From Cinnamomum chago (Eukaryota > Streptophyta > Magnoliopsida > Laurales > Lauraceae): a stretch of DNA of 64,000 bases. The position numbers and the translations under genes are program-made. Every line of letters starts with the position of its first letter. Positions within the stretch are counted from its first letter, which is position 1. The notes below the pieces were generated by a model. That model worked only from the letters and a program-made list of their open reading frames with translations, did not search any database and was not told the origin of the DNA. Location of the stretch: assembly GCA_038049695.1 (NCBI GenBank), contig CP142459.1:67386001-67450000 (forward strand), written 5' to 3'. Below, piece after piece: positions 18,301 to 52,124 of this stretch.

Positions 18301-21300
18301 AGTTACCCCAATAAAGCAGCTAAAATATAATAAAAGAAGTAACAATATATTCTTGTATCTAAAGACGTGACCAAATTCTTATGAGTTGATAGAAGAGCCA
18401 GGTCAAAGCTTTAGATGACTACTTTCCCTAGAGAAACTTTGGATGATTTTCAGAACCATAATTCTCAGTAGTATATCAGAAACTATGCTAGAGCAAGATA
18501 AGCAACAAGGCAGCAGAAACTTTGGATGATTTTCAGAACCATAATTCTCATAAGTATATCAATTACTCTTCGAGTAGGATGTCGTGAGTTACGAAGCTTG
18601 GGAGGACGTAAAGCAATTATTGAAGGTGATTCTTTTTCAGCTGTTCAGTGGGGTTCCGGGAAGATTTCTCATCCTTGGAGATTGGCGGATTGGGTGGAGG
18701 AGATTCAAGATATTTCCAGACAGTTAGAGACTACTTTTCGTCATGTTCTAAGAGAAGCAAATATAGAGGCCGATGTCCTTAGAGAAGGAGGGAGTTTTTC
18801 AATCTTCTATTATTTTTTATGTTTAATCTGTTTGTATATTAGTAGGTATTGCATTTTTGTTTGTTTCTTTCGTGTTTGTAAGCTGGTTTTGGCTTTGTTT
18901 TTTGTTTCTCTTTTTTGTAGTAATAAAATTTACCATTATCAAAAAAAAAAAAATCTCGGAAGTATATCAGAAAATATGCTAGAGCAAGATAAGCAACAAG
19001 GCAGCAGGAATCTCTGAGTAGAGAGAACATAGCAGCTATGAAGAAGCATCCTACGGGTTTTTCTTAAGAAGTGACCGTGAATGAATTGATATGATAGAAC
19101 AGCCAAGTAAAAGCTTGAGATGAATATTAATCTTTAAAGAAACTTTAGATCATTTTTAAAACCCAGATTCTTAAAATGTATCTGAAAAGATATTAGAGAA
19201 AGCTAAGCACCGAGGAAGAAAACTTGGACAGCAGGTACTCTTCTTTAGTAGAGAAAACAGAGCAGCTTTGAAGCAGCATCCTTTCATATGAGAGATTGCA
19301 GTGTAGAATAAATGTAACCATGTAAAAAATATTATTTCATGACATTGTTGTGTTACCTGAACCTAACAGAAAAGAGTGTATAATAAAAGAACTCTGTGTA
19401 GAAAATAATTTATATACTGACCTCTTTGTGTTTCTTTAAACCAAACAGATCCGAGTCTTCCACTGACCGATCACGGTCTCTAAACATCCTCCGGAAGAAA
19501 TTCTCAGTCCCTGGACTACTTTCAAGTGAGCTGCCACCATTACTAATCTCATTTGCAGCCATAATTTTCACATCTTCAGGATGAACCCGAAACAACCTTC
19601 GGAATGACAGAAAGTCTGAGGGCTCTTCTTCTTCACAATTCCGGCTCCCCTTCTCACATTTGGCCTTCTCACTCCCATCTTTCTGCTCCTCATGTTTCTC
19701 CTTAAAAAGTCTACGGAAGAATCCATCCTTCTCATCAACTTCCCCTGTTTTCTCATCATCATCAGTCTTTGCATTCCCATCTTTCTTCTCCTCAAGTTTC
19801 TCCTTGAACAGCCTATGAAAGAAGCCTTCCTTCTCATCATCCTCCCCCAGTTTTTCCTCATTCCCATCTTTCTTCTCGCCGTGTTTCTCCTTAAAAATCC
19901 TACGGAAGAATCCTTCCTTCTCATCATCCTCTCTCACTTTCTCCTCATCCTCAGCCTTCTCCTTCCCATCTTTCTTTTCCTCATGTTTGTCTTTAAAAAA
20001 CCTATGGAAGAATCTGTCCTTGTCTTCCTCTTCACCCAATTTCTCCTCATTCCCAGTCTTCACACTTGGCCCTTTCTTCTCCTCATGTTTGTCCTTAAAC
20101 AGCCTATGGAAGAAGCTTTCCTTATCATCATCACCATCTCCCAATTGCTCCTCCTCCTCCACCTTCTCATTAATATCTTTCTTCTCCTCAAGTTTCTCCT
20201 TAAATATCCTTCGAAAGAACCCGTCCTTGGAATCATCCTCCCCTGATTTCAATCCACCCATCTTATCTTCTGAATCACTCCTGCTATCACGGAACAAGCG
20301 CTTAAAGAACCCGTCCGAATTGGGCGAGAAATCACCCTCAACATCCTTACTCTCTCTTTGCAGTCTTCGGAAGAACCCCTCCTTGTCTGCCTCCTCATCA
20401 TCCTTACTATCCCTGAGCAGCCTCCGGAAAAAACCCTCCTTGTCAGACTCCTCATAATCCTTACTAAGTAACCTACGAAAGAACCCTTCTTTATCCGTCT
20501 CCTCGTCGTCTCTGCTCTCTCTGAGCAGTCTCCTAAAGAACCCATCTTTGTCTGGCTCCTCGTCATCCTTCTCCACAGACTTCCTGAAGAAGAGCGCGTC
20601 TCGGACTTTCACCCCCGGTATGAGCTTCCTGAACAGCTTGTTCTCATCGGACGCAACCTTACCACTACTGTTATGCCCTTCCTGCAACAAATCACTACCA
20701 GATGAAGGTGGTGTGAAGGAAAACGACCTTTGAGCTGGCACCGGAGACGGCGAAGGCGACGAGGCCAGCGACAGTAACCGATGCTTCGACGAGAGTATCC
20801 GATCGATCACCGGCCGGTTCCTGGGACTGCCCGCGGGCGGGACAATGAGAGGCGGCCACTCCCCCATCAGTGTGGCGGCGATCTGGCACTTCTCCTGAAT
20901 TCTGCTAATGTCCTCATTGCCAGCCTCATCCTCGGAGTCCTCGAGCTCCGCCATGAGGAACCAATGGACCTTGAGCGAGATCTGGAGCGATTTTGTGCAA
21001 ATGTCGACGACGAACTTGTCGAGCGAAGGGCTGGGCTTGTGGAGGAGCATGTAGCAGATCTGGAAGAGGTAGCTCTCGATGCCAGAGAGCGGGAGGGTGT
21101 ACATGCGGTTGCAGAGGTAGTCGCGGACGCCGGGGTGGTCATGCTTGTAGAGATAGCTCACAGCAATCCACTCGCAGAAGAAGGCAGAGTCGAAGAATCT
21201 GATCAGCCACCCGTTCTCTCCAACGCCGCCGCCGTCTCCGGCCTTGGGAATCGTCGGTCGGGTGATCTCGCGAGGCGAATCGTAGTTATCGCTGAAGCGA

Positions 21301-21326
21301 TTCAATCCGAGGAGGAGCCGCACCAT
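356..21326 (-). CDS. PI4KB1: Phosphatidylinositol 4-kinase beta (PI4K beta), exons 1-7, 3' part outside window
   Basis: Seen: seven exons on the minus strand, 21326-19422, 15712-15521, 15410-15362, 9497-9365, 9220-8815, 645-565 and 478-356. All have GT-AG borders and joined phases giving 963 uninterrupted codons. Residues about 25-170 are the lipid kinase unique domain (WLIRFFDSAFFCEWIAVSYL). Residues about 240-600 form a very acidic/basic region with 13 copies of a GFFRRLF(K/R)-type motif, the plant PPC repeats. Exons 2-7 match the linker (NLVDIFPIEDRK, GGIPLAN, PPPWAYPL, AAAAKGEAPPGLPLKGAG, PGWDLRS) leading into the kinase domain. The ATP-binding and catalytic loops lie left of base 1. Known for the family: makes PI4P at Golgi/TGN membranes and binds RabA4-type GTPases through the N-terminus. 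The start at 21326 is chosen by homology; an in-frame ATG at 21608 lies upstream of a TATA box. Intron 5 is about 8.2 kb and intron 3 about 5.9 kb, both filled with transposons. Beta1 versus beta2 paralogue is not resolved. Confidence 0.93.
672..737. repeat. Two-copy 33-bp tandem repeat at the end of PI4K beta intron 5
   Basis: The unit starting CTATAAGGGTTCTG occurs at 672 and again at 705, almost identical. It sits just 27 bases upstream (in gene orientation) of the exon 6 acceptor at 645/646, so it could contain or duplicate a branch-point region. No longer array is seen. Confidence 0.8.
1188..1328. mobile_element. Short hAT-type MITE, copy 1
   Basis: A 141-bp element with terminal inverted repeats beginning CTATGATGC and ending GCATCATAG. 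Flanking 8-mers CACAGAAG and CACATAAG match at 7 of 8 positions, fitting an 8-bp hAT target duplication. The interior shares GGATAC/GTATC-rich sequence with the copy at 32451-32592. It lies in intron 5 of PI4K beta. Confidence 0.8.
1876..2666. mobile_element. Probable TIR element with CAAAATCG..ATCGTATC ends
   Basis: The left end (GTTTCCAAAATCCCGATTCG) is similar to the reverse complement of the right end (TTTTCAAAATCGTAATCG) over about 30 bases. The interior is AT-rich and noncoding. I could not find a convincing target duplication, so the boundaries are approximate and the superfamily is unknown. Confidence 0.45.
4219..7114 (+). mobile_element. Solo LTR, about 2.9 kb
   Basis: Begins TGTAATAACC and ends GGGGTGTTACA (TG...CA with short inverted ends) and is flanked by a perfect 5-bp duplication ATAAT at 4214-4218 and 7115-7119. 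No gag, protease or polymerase frame and no second LTR is seen inside. A solo LTR produced by unequal recombination is therefore the simplest reading. Large LTRs of this sort with these ends occur in Tekay/Del-type Ty3 elements; that assignment is inference. Removing it restores continuity of the surrounding older element. Confidence 0.72.
5017..5303. repeat. Tandem duplication inside the solo LTR, period about 178 bp
   Basis: GTGGCCCACC at 5023 and 5201, and CCCAGGGATCTGATAGCA followed by a GGGCGACCCTAGTG stretch in both copies, define one full and one partial copy at a spacing of about 178 bases. Internal LTR duplications like this are common and have no obvious coding role. Confidence 0.75.
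9992..10267 (-). mobile_element. Possible short solo LTR or TRIM-like fragment
   Basis: A 276-bp GC-richer block in intron 3 of PI4K beta. On the minus strand it starts TGTCATGCC and ends GGTCATTACA (TG...CA), and it contains the stretch TTAGTCCCACATTGG seen in many plant repeat families. No matching flanking 5-mers are visible (CGTGA versus CTTAA), so the call rests on the ends and the composition alone. Confidence 0.4.
10762..11104. mobile_element. Degraded hAT-like element with GTAGCGG subterminal repeats, short copy
   Basis: The right end GCTATTCTGATCCTTG is the reverse complement of a CAAGGAT...ATAGC end shared with the larger element at 11511-12891; the left end CATGGCTACTTAGCGGC is a diverged version. 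Flanking 8-mers GCCCAGAC and ACCTAAAC differ only by transitions. Several CGCTACG/GTAGCGG motifs lie near both ends. The boundaries are less certain than in the larger copy. Confidence 0.55.
11511..12891. mobile_element. Non-autonomous hAT-like element with CAAGGATG ends
   Basis: Inverted ends CAAGGATGAAAATAGCA (left) and TGCTATTTACATCCTTG (right). Flanking 8-mers ATGCTAAA and ATGCTGAT match at 6 of 8 positions. Subterminal regions carry repeated GTAGCGG/CCGCTAC motifs at both ends (11550-11570, about 11677, 12766-12800), as expected of hAT transposase-binding clusters. The interior has no transposase; it holds a 33-34-bp minisatellite (11957-12276) and a GCTGCT-rich stretch near 12530-12640. 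Located in intron 3 of PI4K beta. Confidence 0.65.
11957..12276. repeat. Diverged minisatellite, 33-34-bp unit, about 9.5 copies
   Basis: Successive units begin GTGAAATTTG or a variant and contain GGGCCTATTTC or a variant; I can parse nine full units and one partial one. Units differ from one another by many substitutions, so the array is old. It lies inside the hAT-like element 11511-12891. An adjacent TA and GAGA microsatellite covers about 11886-11942. Confidence 0.85.
14159..15107. mobile_element. Non-autonomous hAT element with TAGAGATGTCAAA ends and GC-rich flanks
   Basis: Inverted ends TAGAGATGTCAAATGGG (left) and CCCCGTTTGACATCTCTA (right) with a perfect 8-bp duplication GCCACTAT at 14151-14158 and 15108-15115. 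The outer 150 and 100 bases are strongly GC-rich, packed with GGCCCGCC-type motifs, while the middle is AT-rich. A second, inner inverted pair, TTTTACTCCTGGCGC near 14419 and GCGCCAGGAGTAAAA near 14998, lies inside. No transposase frame is present. Located in intron 3 of PI4K beta. Confidence 0.88.
16330..16950 (+). pseudogene. L1-type LINE fragment with the start of its RNase H domain
   Basis: A frame around 16801-16920 reads GSLKFNVDGAVKGKLGPTGI then GGVLRN, the first strand and turn of the RNase H domain found at the C-terminus of plant L1 LINEs. Upstream sequence looks like a decayed pre-RNase H linker. The match stops near 16945, before the remaining catalytic residues. Dead fragment in intron 1 of PI4K beta, antisense to the gene. 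Confidence 0.7.
16983..17148. repeat. Tandem repeat, about 48-bp unit, three or more imperfect copies
   Basis: Units contain GAGAAGAATAAAGGTCTTTG followed by ATGAGCCCCATGTGAGACC. The block is bracketed on both sides by the same GAGAAAAAATCACCATG string (16966-16982 and 17145-17161), suggesting local replication-slippage duplication. The periodicity and close packing rule out a CRISPR-type array. Confidence 0.8.
17204..17770. mobile_element. Non-autonomous hAT element with CAGNGGCGGATCCAG-like ends
   Basis: Inverted ends CAGAGGCGGATGGAG (left) and CTGGATCCACCACTG (right), with a perfect 8-bp target duplication GATGTGAG at 17196-17203 and 17771-17778. The interior is noncoding and contains inverted CCCCCAGTG motifs near both ends. 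Inserted in intron 1 of PI4K beta. Confidence 0.9.
18361..19230. repeat. Tandem duplicated intronic segment interrupted by a LINE
   Basis: An approximately 80-bp segment starting GAAACTTTGGATGATTTTCA occurs at about 18434-18513 and again from 18516. The second copy is cut by the LINE at 18560 and resumes at about 18959 (AAGTATATCAGAAAATATGC...). A third, more diverged copy with additional upstream similarity runs about 19050-19230. The region belongs to intron 1 of PI4K beta. Confidence 0.75.
18560..18953 (+). mobile_element. 5'-truncated L1-type LINE with poly(A) tail
   Basis: The frame at 18560-18790 reads as the C-terminal half of a LINE RNase H domain (AIIEGDSFSAVQWGSGK ... FRHVLREANIEADVL, including the H-x-x-R-E-x-N-x-x-A-D pattern). 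A T-rich 3' UTR follows and then an A tract at about 18940-18952. Flanking copies of AAGTATATCA (18550-18559 and just after TCTCGG downstream) are the target duplication. It is a separate copy from the fragment at 16330-16950. Confidence 0.82.
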
Positions 21327-21517
21327 CGTCAATCGACCATCCTCGGTGCAGAAACCCCCCAAATTCGATGCGGAAACCCTAGAATTCTTTTGGGTTGGGG
21401 GGAGAAACCCTAGTTGTAGGAGAGAGAGAGAGAAAGAAAGAGAATGTGGGAATTGGAAGGGAGTTCGAATGGATTGGAGGGGATGAGAGAAAGGGAGATT
21501 TGGAGGGGTTTGGGGGA

Positions 21518-21524
21518 TTTTATA
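21518..21524 (-). promoter_or_regulatory. TATA box of PI4K beta
   Basis: The minus strand reads CCTATAAAATCCC. Transcription would be expected roughly 30 bases downstream (about 21490), giving a 5' leader of about 165 bases that includes a CT-rich tract (21420-21445) typical of plant leaders. This placement makes the in-frame ATG at 21608 untranscribed and supports 21326 as the start codon. Confidence 0.55.
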
Positions 21525-21609
21525 GGTTTCGTCTGCAGCTTTTGGTTCTCCGTCGGCGTCGTCGTGGGTGGGGAAGAAGAGGGCTTGGCCAGCATCAGCA
21601 GCACGCATT

Positions 21610-31752: not shown

Positions 31753-33276
31753 CTATCTATCTAAAGATATAATTCATTTTCAAATGTTCTTTGATCAATT
31801 TTTTATGTGCTTGATTACTTGTTTGCAAAATTTATGACTTTCATGCATGACATAACATATCTGACCCGCAGAAATAGCTAACAGAATTGTAGTGTACTGT
31901 ATCCCTAACACCCCACCCTTCTTTTTTATGCACTTGATTACTTTTTTGCATAATTTATCACTTACATGCAAGACATGACATATCTGACCGAATAGCTATC
32001 AGCATTGTAGTACACACCATATCAAATTTTGTAAATATGCGATTTTAATGTTTTTAAGCTTTCTACTATATTATTCCTCTACAAAATTTTATAAATGTGT
32101 TCATCCATGGTGTTTTCTTTAAAAAATAATGATAATCATAAATAGAACACAAAAGCCTGAACACCTAAAATTTTCATTTCAAGGGCAAACCAGAATGGTC
32201 ACTAGAACAGAAATGGCATGTACAGTTTACATATTTTAGCAGAATGGAGAGTCAATTTCATTGTAACTACAGAAGCATATAAAGAATAAAAGACAAAATT
32301 ACATTAGGTGCAATGCAATAGTGATTTTACGATTACACCTCGATCAATATGTCATCACCACCAGCAGCATTGTTATGGAGCATTATTAAGAAAGAAAAAG
32401 GAAACATGTATATAAACATGTGTTCCCACCAAATGTGGACCAATTACAAACTATGATGCACAGATACGGCATGGATATGGTAAGGACACGTCATAGACAC
32501 GGCAGAGACACGGATTTAACACATAAAAAGTGAAGTATCGGATACGATACGACACGATACGTTGTCCATTTTGAAGTATCCGTGCATCATAGATTACAAA
32601 TGTAAAGAAAAACCAATAACAATCTGTTACTCGCAGTTCAGGGTACATCCAAATGCCATGGAAAAGGAGCAAAAGAAAGATTGCCTAGTACAGCAAACCA
32701 CAATACCTTGGCATGACGATGGAGAGGGGTGGCAGCCATCAAGCATATGATGGTGGAGCAATTGGGATTGGCAATGAGAGCCCCCTTCCCTGAGCCAAGC
32801 TTAATGTGGTCCATTGCTTGAGGATTTACCTCTGGGATGATAAGTGGGACACCCTCGTCCATTCGGAATGCCGAACTATTGTCAATGACGATACAACCCT
32901 GAGAAACTGCAACAGGTCCAAATTTCTTGCTTATGGATCCACCTGCACTGAAAAGGGCAATGTCGATGCCACCAAAACTGTCCTCATTGAGCTCTTCTAT
33001 GATGTACTCCTTGTCCTCAAAGGTGAGGTGATTGCCAGCAGAGCGTTTGCTAGCAAGCATGCGGATACTTCGATAAGGAAAATCACGGTCAGAAAGAACA
33101 TGAAGGAACTCCTGACCAACAGCCCCAGTGACACCCACAACAGCCAAAGAAGGGCCATCTTCCTTCAGACCCATGCGTACAGTGAAGTTCCCACTCCAGT
33201 TCTTGCTGCTGTTTCTTCCACCCCGAGCAAGAAAAGTACTAGAAGTGAGATGATGGTGGTAAGCAGCAGCCTGCAT
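28783..33276 (-). CDS. ASD: Aspartate-semialdehyde dehydrogenase, plastid precursor, 8 exons, complete
   Basis: Exons 33276-32707, 30944-30858, 30737-30693, 30606-30511, 30398-30297, 29470-29384, 29304-29237 and 28864-28783 (stop TAA) join in phase to 378 aa, close to the known plant length. Residues 1-35 are Ser/His/Arg-rich and look like a chloroplast transit peptide. GVTGAVG (48-54) is the NADP-binding turn; NPNCSTI carries the catalytic Cys173; TYQAASG has Gln200; RVPVMRAHAES gives Arg279 and His286 of the active site. Known role: NADPH-dependent reduction of aspartyl phosphate to aspartate semialdehyde in the aspartate pathway (Lys, Thr, Met, Ile), in plastids. The start is the first Met of the exon 1 frame. 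Introns carry a MITE, an 83-bp tandem repeat and a duplicated acceptor at exon 7. A 5' UTR exon further upstream, beyond the retrotransposon, is possible but unproven. Confidence 0.96.
29284..29355 (-). repeat. 36-bp tandem duplication spanning the exon 7 splice acceptor of ASADH
   Basis: On the minus strand two consecutive 36-base units differ at only two positions. Each contains a TTTCCAG acceptor followed by GT(A/C)TCCAACAAAGATG, the first codons of exon 7. Using the downstream acceptor (exon start 29304) gives the conserved protein and a 79-base intron. The upstream one (29340) would give a 43-base intron and add 12 in-frame residues. Confidence 0.9.
29805..30045. repeat. Tandem repeat, about 83-bp unit, three copies, ASADH intron 5
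   Basis: Units start at about 29805, 29887 and 29971. Each contains CCCAACCAA(C/A), AGTAACTGAGGAT and a TCCAATGGG boundary. The third unit is slightly shorter. Confidence 0.88.
31712..32025. repeat. Microsatellite and about 120-bp tandem duplication in ASADH intron 1
   Basis: An (AT)n(GT)n(AT)n(CTAT)n composite microsatellite covers about 31712-31765. Immediately after, a segment starting TTTTATGTGCTTGATTACTT (near 31800) is repeated in diverged form from about 31924. Both copies contain a CATATCTGACC motif and an ATTGTAGT motif. Confidence 0.75.
32451..32592. mobile_element. Short hAT-type MITE, copy 2
   Basis: 142 bp with inverted ends CTATGATGCACAGATAC and GTATCCGTGCATCATAG, flanked by a perfect 8-bp duplication ATTACAAA (32443-32450 and 32593-32600). 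Same family as 1188-1328, by its ends and its GATAC/GTATC-rich interior. Inserted in intron 1 of the ASADH gene. Confidence 0.92.
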
Positions 33277-41947: not shown

Positions 41948-42344
41948 ATAGTAATATTTATTTGAAGAAACAGCATAAGCAGAAAAAATCACGAGACCAT
42001 TGATCTCAAACCACTTCAATCCAAAAACTTCCAGGCCGTGAGGATTTCCATCCCATTCTCTTTACGACATTAACTTATTTGTCTAAATAAAAAATTGACT
42101 ACATATTGTGAAAGTTTATGGAGAAAAAATTGACTACATATTGTGAAAGTTTATGGAGAAACCATTGTCACTAGTATCATATCCATGTCGGACCAGGATC
42201 AGAGCAAAATCAAGAGAGCTAGGTAATTCTTAAGTGATTGGATTCATCATGAGTGAGATTTTATTCTAAAACAGAAGCAATTGCCGGAAAAAGGGGAATT
42301 ATGAAGACTTTGTCCTTGGATTGTTTTGATATATATATATATAT

Positions 42345-44170
42345 GAGAAACGGTCTAGTGAGGACCGTCCTCACCCACATTTGAGAGGACCACTCCAGGC
42401 CGTCTGATTTCAAGGAAGATCCAACGGTCATGTTAAAAGCCATATATACCAAAGGAGGGAAACGAAAATCTCAAGACCGCCCAAATCGTCACAAGCCCCA
42501 AATCGCAGACCTCTTCTACCTTCCTCCTCGATCCGTTCGGACGTCTTCCTCTCATCGTCGCAGGGTTCGAACGGCCTGATCATCTTCCTCTTCCTCCTCC
42601 CCTTTCATTGACGACGTCTCTCCCTCGCCTCCATCACTTCCGTCGTGGAGCCATCTCGATTTCCCTCCGCAACATCGAAGTAGAACACCGAAGCATATCC
42701 TCATCTCCGTCGCAGCAGTCCCGGCCTGAACCAGGTCATCTCCTCTCGCCTGTCATCTCCGTTGGGTTATTTTTTTTTTCTTTCTTTTTTTTTTTTTAAT
42801 GAATGTCAGCAGCCATCTCAAATGTCAGCCGAAGCATATCCTTTCTTTCTTTCTTTTTTTTTTCATCTCCGTGGAACAGGTGACGTCCCAATGTCCCGTT
42901 CCATTGCTCTGTGTGTGTTTCACACCCTCTCTCCTGTTATTGGCATTATGGGGGAACCTCGGTGTCGTCATGACTGTGACCCACCCAACTTCAAGAAGCT
43001 CACTACATTTTGAAATCAAGGGCAGAATCCAAATCAGATCAGATCTGAAACAATATAACCCATCTCAAGATTTCCATCCAATATACCGGCTGCAGAGAGG
43101 AGAGAGAGAGAGAGAGGGGAGAAAATGAAGACCGGGATGCTTGAATTCATGGCCTTGAGTTTCTAGGCCTCTGATTCATGGTTCAAGGTGTTTGCATTCC
43201 TGTGGATTGCATCCCATGCATACAGTCCGGGAGAGCTACTGTGGATAAAGGAACGGTCAAGATGTGGTTGAATGAGACTCGGATGTGGATGATCAAAGGG
43301 GTTTCTTCCTTCCTCATGTCAGTGGTGGTCACAATCTTAAAATCCCTTGGCATTTCTGAGTCAGGATTTGAAATAACCAGCAAAGTAATAGATGATGATG
43401 CCGTCAAGAGGTCACTTGATTCTTTGTTGATCTGTGAATGGGTTTTTTTTTTTTTTTTTTTTTTTCCTCTTTTTTTTTTCCTGCTTCTATGGTTGTGTTG
43501 TCATGAAAAAAATGGCAAGGGTATTGTTGATTTCTGTTCTTTTTTGCTTGCATCAAGGTGGGTTCTTTTGGACAGGTGCTAATTTCCCTTGGATTTGTAT
43601 TCACTTGATTTGGGCTAGGGAAAGGGTTTTTGTCTCTTTGCATTTTTTCATCGTATCTATCTTTGTGTGAACATTTTGAGCTTTGTTTGCTTGCTTGATA
43701 ATGAATTAATTGGAATTCTAAGATGGCTTCCAATTAAAGTCAAGGTGAAGATCTCGACAAAGGGCCATCCATTAAAGGGCTTCCAATTCTAAGGGGCTTA
43801 CATTGAAGTCAAGGTGAAGATCTCGACAAAGGGCCATCCATTAAAGGAGGTAAAATGGCTGTTAGAGAAATCATAAGAACTCAATAAAGGAGGTAAAATG
43901 GCTCTTACAGCTTGTTTGTTGTTGCCCTGTCCTCGATGGAAATTTCTTAATCAAGCCCGGATTAGCTGTTTTGCTTTTTTACCCATCCCTACATAAAGCT
44001 ATGTTATCTTTGCTTACGGTAGACTTGAAGAAGGCATATGATTAGATGGTATGCCTGAAAGAGAGCTTCATAAATGTGTAGGATAGTTTGGAATTGGATG
44101 GCACAATGCCTCTCAATTACCTTATTTTCATTTTCAAATAATGGTCTTAAGAACTGATTGTTTCAGGTTT
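42345..44170. repeat. MULE left terminal inverted repeat
   Basis: Reverse-complementary to 50330-52114. Differs mainly in poly(T) length and in an extra tandem copy of a segment containing GGTGAAGATCTCGACAAAGG (two copies, near 43740 and 43810; only one in the right repeat). Contains GA-rich and T-rich tracts and probably the promoter and untranslated leader of the GRF gene. Confidence 0.93.
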
Positions 44171-44743
44171 CCTGAGGCCAAAGCAATTTTGCCCCTGAAT
44201 GAGAATGGTGAATGGTTACTGGATTTCTTTTTAGTATTCCCCTGAAAATCTGCTTCATTTGATTTGAATTACCAATCTCATCTGGATTTTTAATGAAAAA
44301 GGGCAGCAGATTTTATCTCCATCTGTTCAACTTTTTGATTGCCTTTTGAAAAGTAATAGGGAAGTTCGTTCGTGAATGCGAATCACTTGAAGAGATATAG
44401 ATGAGGAGGATTTTACTGATTGCTTGTTGCTTTTATCAAAGGTGTTCTTATAATTCCTTTCCTTTCCCCTATTTTTTTCCCTTTGCCTACATGTTCTGAT
44501 GTTATTTTATCTCTTCAAATTGTTAGGAAAAGATGAGCCATCAAGATGAACATAAAAGCTCGTCTCTTGTTGGGTTTTTTTTTTTTTTTAATGAATGTCA
44601 TCAGCCATAGAAACCCCTTTTCTTCTTCTTATTCTTCTTCTCCTTTGGTGTATCAGTTTGGAGTGCACTGTTATATAAAATGTCCATTTGTATTTTGTTT
44701 TTGTTGTTGGGGTTATTTTGACTCACAATATATTTTGCACAGA

Positions 44744-45237
44744 ATGTCATCTTCTAATACAATCCGTTCTGAATGTACTCCAAAATGCCGATGTGGAGCT
44801 GGAGACATGAAATTATATACTTCTCGTACACAATTGAATCCAAATAGAAAATTTTGGAAATGCCCAAATTGGAATGTAAGCGTGTTGAGGCTACCTCATA
44901 AACTGTTACTATGAGTTGTTTATGTTTCAAATCCAGCATTAATTATTTTTTATGTGTGTAAAACTTTATGCAGGATGAAAGTGGCTGTGGTACATTTCTT
45001 TGGAAAGATGAAGTAGCGAATTGGCAGCTTGCTGAAGCTAATTCAACGATCTGTGAAAGAGAAAATTGGAGAGAAGAAAAGAGAAATTTGATAGCAGTCA
45101 TTGAAAAGTTAGAAAGTTCGGTGTGTGCTTTCATTGAAGTAGAGAAAATTCGAAATGCGTATCTGCGAAAAATTTATCATGCTATTTTAGTTGCATGCTG
45201 TATAATAATATTAGTTTTCTTGTTCAACCATACATGA
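44744..45237 (+). CDS. GRF-type zinc-finger protein with coiled coil and C-terminal membrane anchor, MULE-borne
   Basis: Two exons, 44744-44875 and 44974-45237, with a 98-base GT-AG intron, encode 131 aa. KCRCGAG (14-20), NPNRKFWKCP (32-41) and GCGTFLWKDE (from about 48) form the zf-GRF signature, with four candidate zinc cysteines split across the splice junction. Residues about 68-108 are charged and helix-prone (ENWREEKRNLIAVIEKLE), then a hydrophobic anchor AILVACCIIILVFLF ends the protein. The architecture matches the plant At4g04775-like GRF family, whose function is not established. The start follows a CACAG acceptor-like site, suggesting a 5' UTR intron reaching back into the TIR. Position and orientation mirror mudrB of MuDR, but the family is different. 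A role as transposition accessory factor is inference. Confidence 0.82.
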
Positions 45238-46589
45238 AATACATGCTCTGGAGATATGTATTCTCTAAAGGTTTAAAACCATGTCTTCTGTATGTTGGAA
45301 CATAGTTGTTATGAATGGGCATTGCTTTTCTAATAATGTCAGATGGCATTACTAGACGTTTCATGTTCTGGTGTAGTATGATGATAAAGTGAGGGTGTGA
45401 CTTGGAGAAATTCTAATTTAGAGAATAAACTCGGATGTCTGTGAGGTGGATGGCTCAGATGGCCCTGTTAATCGGCCCATTGCCATTGCAATCTTAACCA
45501 ATCAATGCTTGGATATATCTCTGCATGGTACCGTCCATGAATGTATGTCAACATGACACTTGGTGTACAGTGAAGTGATTGATGTTGGAATTGGGCTGTG
45601 ATGGGTCTTGATGAATTGGTGACTTGCCCCCAACCTGCCTCTAGAAAGGATAGGTTTGGTAGTATTTTTGTCTAATTCGAGTCGTGTATGGTTTTATAAA
45701 TCTTGACTCCAATGTTAGCACGTACGGTTAACACCCCACACACACACACAATTTTTGAAGAACCCCTTCTATCTTAAGCAATTTTCAATACTCAGAGAGA
45801 AAAAAAAAGAGATACAGCAAGTTTTGATGGATTTTTTACATTGCTACAATCGTCCACAAGCAAAAATTCCCAGTTCTGCCTCTGGAGTCTGGATGCAGGT
45901 TTGGATTTTGCTATACCATTTGCCATCCATCCTTGAATTCTAGTAATGTGAACGCTGCTAAAAAGACTTGGAAAGTTAAAAAGTAGTCAATGATGGCCCA
46001 ATTCCATGTCCTCTGTTTCTACACTATCCTTATCACTCTTTTAAGTCATCACCGTCATCGTCACTCATCATCCAGCGTGATGAATGTTAATCAAAGTCTA
46101 AAATTGCAAACTGGCATTCCACATACCTCTACTGAAATCAGTCATAATGTTACTTGAAGAATATTGGTGGTTCAAATGATAGCCATGCAAAATGCTCACA
46201 AACATCTCCTAAGATTGAATTAACGGAAAAATCCAACAAGTAGATTATTTATACTATCAGTAAGATTACTTCATGCCTCAGTAGTTAATCAATTCACCTC
46301 AATTCATGTTAATCAAAACAACCCAGAAGCCTAAAATGAAATGCTGAGCTTCATTAAGTTGTTGACTACATCAGTTCTCTCCTCTACAAATCTCCCCTGC
46401 AGTAAGTTGCAATGATCATCCAATAACACTTGAAGAAGAATATACTTTAAAAAAAAGATTTTCATAGCACAAATAAGTCTAACCAGTTCAAAGGTTCACA
46501 ATGTATAAAAAACACAGAATCAACAATTGTATAAAATTACAACAATGGATAAAACTACATTGCTCTCCTTCTTTCCTTCATCTCAAGTG
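45238..46589. other. Convergent intergenic space of the MULE
   Basis: Noncoding, AT-rich, with a short (CA)n near 45738. It should hold both polyadenylation regions. No further gene is seen. Confidence 0.6.
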
Positions 46590-48984
46590 TCATATCCATT
46601 GGTTGACGTCAGAACCGGACACATCCGAATCACTTCCTTCAACGGACGCATTGGATGGGTCTTCTGACATTCTTGGAATGTCCACATGTAGATCAACAGT
46701 CCCCCTGAAATATATGATCAGGCAACATAATTAGTGATGTAAACTAAGAAGAACAAAACTGAAATGAAATATGAGAAAAATATAAGTGAACAAAATTATA
46801 GGGAAAAAATTACCTGTTCAAGAGAACTGGACAATTCCGTTTGTCATGTGAAACACCACGCTGGTTGCATCCACGGCAAAGTCTTTCTTTCTTTTGAGCT
46901 TTCTCCTTCGATGACTTTAGTCTTTTTGGACGACCATTTGTTGTAGCATGAGGTGGTTCAATCAATTGCACTGCATTACTAACTGCATCACTAACCACTT
47001 TATTTTTTCCATTGGATGTATGTTCTCCTCCAATTTCAAGTTGATTCATTTTACGACACATTTTATGAAGATCAGTCAGCACATTTATTACATATTCGTA
47101 TGTCCTTGAACACATACTTGCCTCATTAGAAACCATGTTGCCCCAATAGGACAAATCACCATGCCGGACAATCAAAGAGTTAGCACCAGTAGTATTCCCC
47201 ACCATCACACATTTGCTATATTTTGTACCATCTCTCGCGTGACGAGTCCATCTCTTTAATATAAAATGCTCAGGCAAGGTGAAAATCATCTCGTGTTTCA
47301 ACGCAGCAATCATATGACTACAAGGAATTCCTCGAAATTCAAATAGTTTGCAAGAGCAGTTTGCGCATTTAGAATCTTTTTTGAAAATGACCCTTTTTGA
47401 AGTTTTGCAATTATTTTTCATGGACCAAACATCATAAATGCTCTCTGCCGCATCTTCCTTTACAAGTTTTGGAATGGATGATACCATTGCCATGAATTGT
47501 ACCTGGAACTCATGAAACATTTTTCTCGAATATATTCCGGACATTTGTTCCTCCATCTCCAAATCAGTGAGGAGCTTTGGCCTCGTTTGCAAGTTTTCAT
47601 GCTCTGCTTTTAACTCTTGATACCTTTGACGTGTGATTGCACGTTCAAAGCGCATCATAAAGTCATGCAAACCACACTTATGTGTTTCAAACTGCTTAAT
47701 GAAGGCATTGAAACTTTCACTTCTTTGCGATGATGACATTCCCGCAAAAAACATGCCCTTTAAAAAGATTGGCACCCACATCTCACGAAGCATGTACATG
47801 TCTTCTAGCCAACTGTCTTCCTTCAATTTATATTGAATTCGTATCTTGGTCCATTCCATCTCAAAATGATCCGTTGAAACAGCATTGTAAACAACTTTAT
47901 TTATTGCATCCATAAGCCCGTCAGCATGAATTGCAATTCCGCCCAACTTGGATGGCAACTTTTGCATAATGTGCCAGATACAAAAGCGATGTCGTGTGGC
48001 AGGCATAACGTGCTTAATTGCTTTCCTCATCGCGGGATCTTGGTCTGTTACAATGGCTTCTGGTGGACCCGTAGGCATGGCTTCCAACCACCGTTTAAAT
48101 AGCCACACAAATGAATCAAAACTCTCATTGGATAAAAAACCACTTCCAAAGATGACAGTTTGATCATGGTGATTTACTCCCATAAATGCACCGAAGATAA
48201 GATCATATTTATTGGTTTGATATGTTGTGTCAAAAGTAACAACATCACCAAAAACAATGTATGAAAGACGACAAAGGTGATCTGCCCAAAATACATGCTT
48301 AATTTGATTGTTCTCATCCGTCTCTATAGAATAATAAAAACCCGGATTCATTTCTTTCATGTATTCAAAATACTCATACAACATCTTACCATCTCGCCCC
48401 TTTTTTGCTTTCTGCTTGTCCCGATGATGATTCCGCATGTCCTGCTCATTGAAACCAACTGCTCCTGAACCACCAGCTTGTGTGCTTAAGAGTCCCATTT
48501 GATTTGCAGGTCGTATGTTATTTACTTCAAATGCATTTATTAAGTTCTTATGGGTTGGAGTAATCTTACGGTGTGAACGAAACATATGGGTCTTACGTGG
48601 GGTAGATAAGATATGAGTATGTTCTTCAACAAATTTGTTAACAACCCAATGTCCGATTGCAATCTTTTTAAGCACAATTTCCGCCCCACAATTTTCTCTC
48701 GTATATGGAACACGCTTCTGTGCCACAATACCACAACCTTCCTTTTCTATTCTTTTACCTTGTTTAGAACACATAAACTGCTTCCAACATACTTCACCCC
48801 TCTTTTTTTTATCTGAGCCACGTCTAATACCAAAACCAGCAATCCTCGCATAAGTATTATAAAATTCGTAAGCTTCTTCCAAGTCATGGAAATACATTCC
48901 AACCTGTGGGGTTTTATCCTCATCTACTTCAGGTATGAAGATTCTACTCAAGGAAGATGCAGCTGATTCCAACTTCTCATCCAT
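46590..48984 (-). CDS. FAR1/FHY3-type MULE transposase, 2 exons, apparently intact
   Basis: Exons 48984-46814 and 46704-46590 join (AG|G) to 761 aa. FAR1 DNA-binding domain about 37-127 (EEAYEFYNTYARIAGFGI ... CSKQGKR ... NCGAEIVL). MULE DDE domain about 245-430: VVTFDTTY (Asp252), VTDQDPAM (Asp314), then HRFCIWHIMQ and SSSQRSESFNAFIK (Glu423). SWIM zinc finger 543-557 (CSCKLFEFRGIPCSH). CX2CX6HX4C zinc knuckle 703-718. Exon 2 adds a short acidic tail (EDPSNASVEGSDSDVSGSDV). No stop or frameshift interrupts it and all catalytic residues are present. Domesticated FAR1/FRS transcription factors share this architecture; here the gene sits between matched TIRs, so it is best read as a live or recently live transposase. 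Likely transcribed from the right TIR. Confidence 0.93.
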
Positions 48985-50329
48985 TTAAAAATGTGAACAG
49001 ACACAGATTACACATGAAGGAAAAAAAAAAATTTCAGGTAAATAACGTAGAATAGTTGCCCATCAGATTTTATCAACACAAAAATAAATAAGTAAAATAA
49101 AAATAATGTAACTCTAAAATATATTATTTGAGAAATACCTGAGTGTTTTCATGGTGGTTTGGGATTTCTGCATGGTCGGAGCTGGAGAACTCTTCTACCT
49201 CGTTACCAGAGGGCAAGTTCGGAGAGAACAAAGCTGGGTGAAAAGGGATAGGGTCATCCATGGATATAAAATAGATGGTTTTGCATTATACAAGGAAGAG
49301 AATGGTAGATCGTCCCTCGTGAGTGGCGGTCCTCTGCATGGACCTTGTCCTCTTGACTTCTGTTTCAGATAAAAAGAGAGAGTTCAGTTTGATATAATGC
49401 CGTATCAATGTTCTCTACAGGTTCCATTCCATGATACTACAATATCAGATTTAAGGAAATTCACCCAATTTAAAGAAGCTGGAAATTCACCCAATTTAAA
49501 GAAGCCAAAATCCATCACTGTGAACATACAGAAGCAAAAAAATCAACAGGCAAAGCACATGCAAAATAATTAAACAAAGATAATTGGCAATAGTCAACAG
49601 AAGTGAAAATCAACAACCAAAATGCAAAAAGAACAAATAAACAATAATATCAAACAATCATTTTTTTTCAATAAATTCAACATTCAACCAAAAAAGAACA
49701 AATAAACAAATAAAAAAAAAAACCCACCTTTATGGGCTCTCATCCTTCCGTTTAGTTTAGTAGGAATATGAATTGTCTTATAATTTTGTTTTGGAGGGCA
49801 AACCTGCATTGTTTTGGGCATTTGCAGGCGGTGCCTGTCATGTATATGTATATTTGACAGCCAAAGCTCTGGACTCATTGGGTCCTTATAAATCAGGTGG
49901 AGGAATGCAGAGTTAAACCTGGTTAAGTTGGGAAAGGTCAAGGGATACATCAGAGCCCATTTTAGCATCTGTAAATCGAGTGCGGGTATTTCGCTAGTCA
50001 CACATCAACGGTTGGGTTATTACCGAACCATCTTAATTTGAGAAGTTCAAGTAAAAGCTAGTTGGGCTACGCCCACACTTCCAAAAGGGCCATCAGATGA
50101 AGGGTGAATATCTAGGCTACACCCACACTTCCAACGAGCCATCAAATGAAGGGTGATAGCAAATACAAGAGAGCAAATGCTAGAAGAATAGAGTAGGCAG
50201 TGATAGATGTGGGCATCCGACCTTTGTCCCTCCTAAAAAACAAGGCCTCGTACAGGGGCAGGCTAACCAAGCTTATAAAACCCGAAAGGATCAATTGCAG
50301 GGCCATATGATCAAGATCAAACCACTTCC
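48985..50329 (-). other. 5' leader region of the transposase gene
   Basis: Between the transposase start codon and the inner edge of the right TIR. No conserved coding sequence. Splice-like sites (for example an AAATAC/CTGAG boundary near 49137) suggest one or more 5' UTR introns. A 50-bp imperfect duplication (GGCTAC(G/A)CCCACACTTCCAA) lies near 50066-50150. Confidence 0.45.
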
Positions 50330-52114
50330 AAACCTGAAACAATCAGTTCTTAAGACCATTCATTGAAAATGAAAATAAGGTAATTGAGAGGCATTGTGCC
50401 ATCCAATTCCAAACTATCCTACACATTTATGAAGCTCTCTTTCAGGCATACCATCTAATCATATGCCTTCTTCAAGTCTACCGTAAGCAAAGATAACATA
50501 GCTTTATGTAGGGATGGGTAAAAAAGCAAAACAGCTAATCCGGGCTTGATTAAGAAATTTCCATTGAGGACAGGGCAACAACAAACAAGCTGTAAGAGCC
50601 ATTTTACCTCCTTTATTGAGTTCTTATGATTTCTCTAACAGCCATTTTACCTCCTTTAATGGATGGCCCTTTGTCGAGATCTTCACCTTGACTTCAATGT
50701 AAGCCCCTTTAATTGGAAGCCATCTTAGAATTCCAATTAATTCATTATCAAGCAAGCAAACAAAGCTCAAAATGTTCACACAAAGATAGATACGATGAAA
50801 AAATGCAAAGAGACAAAAACCCTTTCCCTAGCCCAAATCAAGTGAATACAAATCCAAGGGAAATTAGCACCTGTCCAAAAGAACCCACCTTGATGCAAGC
50901 AAAAAAGAACAGAAATCAACAATACCCTTGCCATTTTTTTCATGACAACACAACCATAGAAGCAGGAAAAAAAAAAAAGAGGAAAAAAAAAAAAAAAAAA
51001 AAACCCATTCACAGATCAACAAAGAATCAAGTGACCTCTTGATGGCATCATCATCTATTACTTTGCTGGTTATTTCAAATCCTGGCTCAGAAATGCCAAG
51101 GGATTTTAAGATTGTGACCACCACTGACATGAGGAAGGAAGAAACCCCTTTGATCATCCACATCCGAGTCTCATTCAACCACATCTTGACCGTTCCTTTT
51201 ATCCACAGTAGCTCTCCCAGACTGTATGCATGGGATGCAATCCACAGGAATGCAAACACCTTGAACCATGAATCAGAGGCCTAGAAACTCAAGGCCATGA
51301 ATTCAAGCATCCCGGTCTTCATTTTCTCCCCTCTCTCTCTCCCTCTCTCTCTCTCCTCTCTGCAGCCGGTATATTGGATGGAAATCTTGAGATGGGTTAT
51401 ATTGTTTCAGATCTGATCTGATTTGGGTTCTGCCCTTGATTTCAAAATGTAGTGAGCTTCTTGAAGTTGGGTGGGTCACAGTCATGACGACACCGAGGTT
51501 CCCCCATAATGCCAATAACAGGAGAGAGGGTGTGAAACACACACAGAGCAATGGAACGGGACATTGGGACGTCACCTGTTCCACGGAGATGAAAAAAAAA
51601 AGAAAGAAAGAAAGGATATGCTTCGGCTGACATTCGAGATGGCTGCTGACATTCATTAAAAAAAAAAAGAAAGAAAGAAAGAAAGAAAATAACCCAACGG
51701 AGATGACAGGCGAGAGGAGATGACCTGGTTCAGTCCGGGACTGCTGCGACGGAGATGAGGATATGCTTCGGTGTTCTGCTTCGATGTTGCGGAGGGAAAT
51801 CGAGATGGCTCCACGACGGAAGTGATGGAGGCGAGGGAGAGACGTCGTCAACGAGAGGGGAGGAGGAAGAGGAAGATGATCAGGCCGTTCGAACCCTGCG
51901 ACGATGAGAGGAAGACGTCCGAACGGATCGAGGAGGAAGGTAGAAGAGGTCTGCGATTTGGGGCTTGTGACGATTTGGGCGGTCTTGAGATTTTCGTTTC
52001 CCTCCTTTGGTATATATGGCTTTTAACATGACCGTTGGATCTTCCTTGAAATCAGACGGCCTGGAGTGGTCCTCTCAAATGTGGGTGAGGACGATCCTCA
52101 CTAGACCGTTTCTC
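50330..52114. repeat. MULE right terminal inverted repeat
   Basis: Reverse complement of 42345-44170 apart from scattered substitutions, poly(T)/(A) length changes and one missing tandem duplication. Open frames within it (for example 51303-51851 minus) appear in parallel in the left repeat and are low-complexity, so I treat them as leader sequence. Confidence 0.93.
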
Positions 52115-52124
52115 TATATATATA

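Follow-up and report, generated by a model that had tools for sequence, protein, structure and literature searches.

Mutator-like elements (MULEs) of the FAR1 type gave plants the FHY3/FAR1 transcription factors and have been described mostly through their transposase alone. To our knowledge, Jittery of maize and TED have no second gene at all. In MuDR of maize, the genes mudrA and mudrB converge. Here we describe a MULE of 9.77 kb at positions 42345 to 52114 of a 64,000-nucleotide window of the Cinnamomum chago genome (C9:67386001-67450000 of the 1.06-Gb assembly), in which a FAR1-type transposase gene converges with a gene encoding a GRF zinc finger protein with a hydrophobic C terminus, here called GRF-TM. 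In this genome, GRF-TM is a regular constituent of one MULE group and not a one-off.

Like the window element, MuDR has two genes, one for the transposase and a second gene, between its terminal inverted repeats (TIRs), and mudrB is apparently required for integration (PMC6446971, in excerpt). The two elements differ in that the window element has a transposase of the FAR1 type and, as its second product, a GRF zinc finger protein ending in a hydrophobic segment. Jittery is FAR1-type like the window element, its protein JITA having a FAR1 domain, and both Jittery and TED are stated to lack mudrB-homologous sequences (excerpts of PMC9569675). The VANDAL element Hiun, with vanB and vanC, is a plant MULE that has accessory genes besides the transposase, as here; however, according to the same excerpts of PMC6446971, vanB and vanC encode divergent proteins, with VANC acting in anti-silencing, whereas the putative helper in the window is a GRF protein. 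The term GRF is absent from the main text of PMC6446971. Pack-MULEs carry host fragments, as do the window TIRs (a cellulose-synthase-like fragment); unlike a Pack-MULE, the window element has kept an open transposase, and its GRF gene is complete and conserved.

At4g04775 is a short protein with an N-terminal GRF domain and a hydrophobic C-terminal segment, and At4g04775-like proteins resemble GRF-TM in this layout; the difference is that many of the sampled GRF-TM relatives here lie in MULEs. The zf-GRF domains, which prefer single strands, also occur in NEIL3, APE2, and TOP3A, and these share with GRF-TM the domain family and, as predicted by modeling, the ribbon. In the enzymes, zf-GRF is part of a DNA-processing protein, whereas GRF-TM consists of a lone domain, a stalk, and a hydrophobic end; a DNA-binding role is described for the domain of NEIL3 and predicted for fungal Top3, a topoisomerase III (PMC9369019, in excerpt). 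A search of the literature for a pairing of MULE and GRF genes found no description, and a two-gene MULE with a putative helper of a different family from mudrB, found repeatedly in one genome next to several types of transposase, is apparently undescribed.

Two convergent genes between long inverted repeats

Judged by its sequence, the window element is an autonomous-looking two-gene MULE, with the transposase and GRF-TM genes converging between the TIRs. Its main parts are as follows.

42345 to 44170 (+): left TIR, from arm-to-arm alignment
44744 to 44875 (+): GRF gene exon 1, of 44 codons, encoding the first portion of the zinc finger, from reading frame and Pfam; splice donor GTAAGC
44974 to 45237 (+): GRF gene exon 2, with the last GRF cysteine, linker, hydrophobic C terminus, and stop codon, from reading frame and Pfam; the linker is helical in the P0001 model (see below)
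46590 to 46704 (-): transposase exon 3, C-terminal tail; reading frame and splice sites agree
46814 to 48975 (-): transposase exon 2, with FAR1, MULE, and SWIM domains, from reading frame and Pfam
49139 to 49261 (-): transposase exon 1, 41 codons, from reading frame
50330 to 52114 (-): right TIR, from arm-to-arm alignment; terminal 20-mer exact at both ends

The 1.8-kb TIR arms are identical in 1748 of 1771 ungapped aligned columns, with 23 mismatches (20 of them transitions) and 5 gap events. With up to 3 mismatches allowed, the window contains two matches to the terminal 20-mer and no more, one at each end of the element and in inverted orientation (0 occurrences expected). The inner boundary of the TIR closer in each case is 0.57 kb from the start codon of the GRF gene and 1.07 kb from that of the transposase gene. 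The left TIR is ~54 bp longer than the right one, and the extra piece at 43740-43790 resembles a tandem copy of its neighbor.

With splice sites read from the sequence, the three-exon transposase gene encodes 799 amino acids and is open throughout; the single open reading frame (ORF) of 724 amino acids is essentially its middle exon. Pfam scores were 105.0 bits for MULE (PF10551; cut-off, 27.6), 64.9 bits for FAR1 (PF03101; cut-off, 28.1), and 31.9 bits for SWIM. The mudrA-type N-terminal domain DBD_Tnp_Mut was absent among the five Pfam families listed up to an E value of 1, and FAR1 was found instead.

The two-exon GRF-TM gene, its splice sites likewise read from the sequence, encodes 131 amino acids. 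The GRF domain (PF06839) scored 33.7 bits (cut-off, 25.9) and has the four zinc-ligand cysteines C15, C17, C40, and C49, and residues 111 to 129 are hydrophobic (Kyte-Doolittle mean, 2.55). Among named proteins, the closest relatives of the GRF protein come from Cinnamomum micranthum and Persea americana. P0001, the relative from C. micranthum, is predicted to form a sheet of three strands and, after it, a single long helix (mean predicted local distance difference test score, 73.6), and the best Foldseek matches of this model were NEIL3 GRF domains (probability 0.99 but E value 0.16); these matches are weak, yet in line with the Pfam GRF assignment. P0112, a protein from a eukaryote transcriptome, is 43% identical to the window GRF protein along almost the whole length and has a hydrophobic C terminus; Pfam listed no GRF match for it. 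Since P0112 comes from a transcriptome, some relative of GRF-TM is transcribed somewhere. Alignment, Pfam, and exon reading confirmed the anatomy given in the original prediction, that is, matched 1.8-kb arms, an intact FAR1-type transposase, and a convergent two-exon GRF gene with a hydrophobic C terminus.

Further features lie in or next to the element.

42336 to 42344 (no strand): possible 9-bp target site duplication (TSD) TATATATAT, left copy, from sequence, in a TA microsatellite
43259 to 43453 (+): cellulose-synthase-like host gene fragment in the left TIR, Pfam PF03552, 25.1 bits (cut-off, 24.7)
44577 to 44608 (+): short copy of TIR segment 42785-42816 immediately 5' of the GRF gene, matching at 31 of 32 bases and in part poly-T
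50993 to 51250 (-): right-TIR copy of the cellulose-synthase-like fragment, Pfam PF03552, 23.7 bits (slightly below the cut-off, 24.7)
52115 to 52123 (no strand): possible 9-bp TSD TATATATAT, right copy, from sequence, in a TA microsatellite

The presence of TATATATAT on both flanks fits a 9-bp TSD yet is not diagnostic because the insertion sits inside a TA microsatellite. MULEs are characterized by TSDs of 8 to 11 bp. Clean 9-bp TSDs were found in relatives, namely AAATATGAA at locus L010, TTTAAATAA at L025, and TTGTTTTAT at L038 plus L036; those of L010 and L025 are perfect and lie outside microsatellites, and many other copies sit in TA runs. The occurrence of the cellulose-synthase-like fragment in both arms means that host sequence was captured into the TIR and is present in both copies.

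Pairing of GRF and transposase genes across the genome

In searches of the C. chago genome, we scored the best 150 of 531 candidates for the Pfam GRF domain, 150 of 616 for the window GRF protein, 62 of 2902 for the window transposase, and 150 of 3015 for the MULE domain. The 128 GRF loci listed by the Pfam search and the 98 from the GRF-protein search (rows collapsed by hand, exons joined) merged into 222 loci; the 62 transposase loci were collapsed from 67 rows, of which 5 were dropped as second pieces. Random relocation of coordinates served as the control.

A listed GRF locus lay within 10 kb of 50 of the 62 best transposase loci, at a distance of 701 to 4700 bp, with 49 pairs convergent and 1 in tandem, compared to 0.29 paired loci per trial on average and never more than 3 in 1000 random relocations. 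Among the 12 transposase loci with no listed GRF locus within 10 kb, one (C7:26800958) has a convergent GRF gene 10.5 kb away, and another (C2:22378896; 61% identity), read directly, has none in the 4 kb downstream. The window GRF protein had at least 189 matches in the genome among the best 150 of 616 candidates scored, and of the 98 loci from this search, 50 lie within 10 kb of a listed transposase. Counted over the 222 merged GRF loci, a listed MULE transposase is present within 10 kb of 85 (83 of them convergent) and within 20 kb of 91. Among the 150 best of the 3015 MULE-domain candidates, 39 had a listed GRF locus within 10 kb (38 convergent), compared to a mean of 0.67 and a maximum of 4 in 500 random relocations. 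None of the 37 best-scoring MULE-domain loci had a listed GRF locus within 20 kb, so GRF-TM seems to be confined to certain MULE groups rather than present in all.

Twenty stretches of 10 kb were fetched around high-ranking GRF loci, which are not a random sample. A related transposase, whole or partial, lay convergent and downstream of the GRF gene in 18 stretches (all but L016 and L021), and inverted arms enclosed both genes in 17 (all but L016, L021, and L026). The motif GGTCTAGTGAGGA, which is part of the TIR end, was found with up to 2 mismatches on both strands in 16 of the 21 sequences (window included), on one strand in 4, and on neither strand in L026. The original prediction had asked how often GRF genes lie near and convergent to FAR1-type transposases between TIRs, and these counts answer it in favor of a regular pairing. 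It had also named two observations that would speak for a single captured gene: GRF-TM genes lacking FAR1 transposases or TIRs elsewhere, and related copies of the element lacking the GRF gene. In this genome, neither held, as GRF-TM genes were accompanied at the loci counted above and most related copies have the GRF gene.

Eight further loci (L029 to L036) were picked by GRF type for direct reading. At L029, a single-exon GRF-TM gene converges with an open FAR1 transposase gene of 750 amino acids between 103-bp arms; the GRF protein is 47% identical to that of the window, and the transposase is 52% identical over 705 amino acids to that of the window and 95.6% identical over 548 residues to the C. 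micranthum protein P0009. The L030 and L035 genes encode type B GRF proteins (35% and 33% identity to the window protein), consist of two exons that are joined at the equivalent point of the GRF domain, and adjoin FAR1/MULE transposases. The L030 stretch held only the C terminus of its transposase, with the MULE domain just outside it at C3:105520714. The L035 transposase is 51% identical to that of the window over a 269-amino-acid piece and 41% identical over residues 56 to 684, and the two genes lie between arms that are 78% alike. At L036, a two-exon GRF gene adjoins a MULE transposase that is 41% identical to that of the window over 243 amino acids; both lie between arms that are 97% alike across 1008 bp, and the element is bordered by a 9-bp TSD. 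The terminal sequences of L035 and L036 differ from those of the window family, as judged on the termini and not on whole arms. Three further types of MULE transposase are accompanied in this layout by more divergent GRF-TM-like genes, in arms with different termini.

At L031, L033, and L034 (type B GRF), no transposase was found in the 6 to 8 kb read downstream. At L031:2852-3289 (-), on the strand opposite to the GRF gene, an ORF encodes a double-stranded-RNA-binding motif (Pfam dsrm, 34.1 bits). L032:998-3182 is a small element with 204-bp inverted arms (93% alike), an intronless GRF-TM gene (32% identity to the window protein), and an ORF of 191 amino acids; its GRF Pfam score, 34.8 bits, is common to several GRF loci elsewhere. 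A resemblance of this ORF to the N terminus of MuDR was considered and dropped, as Pfam gave no match even at an E value of 10. Loci L001, L003/L004 (overlapping), and L005 contain other kinds of GRF gene with no MULE transposase match in ~3 kb each, and they look like host genes.

Selection on the two genes and a test of their co-descent

GRF-TM is kept by selection and is inherited with, and apparently sometimes exchanged between, transposase lineages in this genome. In nine hand-picked pairs between subfamilies, the ratio of nonsynonymous to synonymous substitution rates (Ka/Ks) of the GRF gene was 0.13 to 0.30, indicating purifying selection. For the window gene, it was (i) 0.16 with respect to L022 (Ks, 0.44; Ka, 0.069; Fisher P = 5.7e-9), (ii) 0.15 with respect to L025 (P = 5.3e-10), (iii) 0.13 with respect to L027 (P = 2.9e-10), and (iv) 0.30 with respect to L017 (P = 6.6e-4); over 20 copies, it ranged from 0.07 to 0.68. 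The median over all pairs, which are not independent, was 0.29 for the GRF gene (201 of 210 pairs usable; 4 at 1 or above) and 0.24 for the transposase (153 of 210 usable; 3 at 1 or above). Type B GRF genes gave values of 0.26 to 0.56 in the 9 of 10 pairs for which the ratio was defined, with weaker significance (Fisher P = 0.002 to 0.15). A test for conservative substitutions in the GRF protein gave strong results with P0001 and P0006 (0 of 1000 each) and weaker ones with P0004, P0005, P0108, P0109, and P0112 (5 to 26 of 1000); with P0002 it failed (186 of 1000), and Ka/Ks was used in its place.

The GRF frame was free of stops and frameshifts in 9 of 21 copies, the middle transposase exon was open over at least 700 codons in 5, and both genes were open in 3 (the window, L022, and L023). 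Neutral simulation of the 22 differences between the window GRF gene and P0001 left 1058 of 5000 runs free of stops, and therefore ORF intactness by itself proves little.

Co-descent of the two genes, proposed as a check in the original prediction, was borne out in part. GRF and transposase distances correlated across 18 copies (r = 0.565; 0 of 5000 permutations as high), and the two trees agree on the window group. L022 and L023, in contrast, group with L017 to L020 in the transposase tree (support, 0.77 to 0.85) and with L025 to L027 in the GRF tree (support, 1.0), suggesting that the second gene has been exchanged between subfamilies. The transposases of L022 and L023 are ~1% apart from those of L017 to L020 by branch lengths. 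The GRF genes are ~12% apart, those of L017 and L022 differing by 46 changes in 127 codons.

Possible roles of GRF-TM and competing explanations

In our best reading, one MULE group has long kept GRF-TM as an accessory gene, located where MuDR has mudrB. Accessory status as such, irrespective of what the protein does, appears very likely; for the joint proposal of an accessory gene of the MULE group that also acts as a mobility helper, we lean slightly in favor. The near-identical TIRs would probably provide matching promoters, one for the FAR1-type transposase and the other for GRF-TM. The GRF ribbon may bind nucleic acid, perhaps the single-stranded ends or gaps arising from excision or insertion, and the helical stalk and C-terminal anchor would hold the protein at a membrane, perhaps the nuclear envelope. 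GRF-TM anchored in this way might help to capture or re-insert the excised element or might shield its ends; in MuDR, mudrB is apparently needed for insertion in a comparable way.

A membrane-anchored nucleic-acid binder need not take part in the transposition reaction, however, and GRF-TM could be an accessory gene with a regulatory role, either countering host silencing as VANC does in VANDAL MULEs or dampening transposition. An accessory gene with an anti-silencing role is known in another plant MULE (PMC6446971, in excerpt), and nothing specific speaks against such a role here; we give this alternative appreciable weight, short of an even chance. It is improbable that GRF-TM is a captured host gene, a Pack-MULE-like passenger with no function for the element. 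Such capture would be in keeping with the cellulose-synthase-like host sequence in both TIR arms and with the free-standing host-like GRF genes at L001 and L003/L004, which have a CCHC-like knuckle and no MULE transposase match in ~3 kb, but a passenger would not be expected to accompany 50 of the 62 transposase loci, nor to turn up next to divergent MULE transposases enclosed by other arms, and the purifying selection on GRF between element-borne copies is unlike that of a passenger. Still less credible is an independent repeat family, in which GRF genes move in elements of their own and came to lie in MULEs through nested insertion only. Although 131 of the 222 merged GRF loci have no listed MULE transposase within 20 kb, nested insertion would not be expected to yield a constant convergent order, a spacing of 0.7 to 4.7 kb (49 of 50 pairs), and shared arms, and a scan of the flanks of the window GRF gene for inverted repeats found only short, chance-like pairs.

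With GRF-TM read as an accessory gene, a wider proposal can be made, to which we give an even chance: GRF-TM would be the old, general, mudrB-like second gene of one large plant FAR1-type MULE clade, descending together with the transposase through several TIR families, and also the source of many At4g04775-like GRF families, left behind or domesticated. If GRF-TM is a standing partner of these elements, a class of unexplained plant genes gains an origin as well as a function open to testing. MuDR's combination of transposase and helper would then recur with a helper of another family, and hypothetical proteins annotated with a GRF-type domain in plant genomes may often be the products of transposon genes.

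Elsewhere in the window, a long ORF at 19410-21608 (-) presumably resembles plant phosphatidylinositol 4-kinase beta, and an ORF at 32638-33276 (-) has what we take to be a resemblance to aspartate-semialdehyde dehydrogenase.

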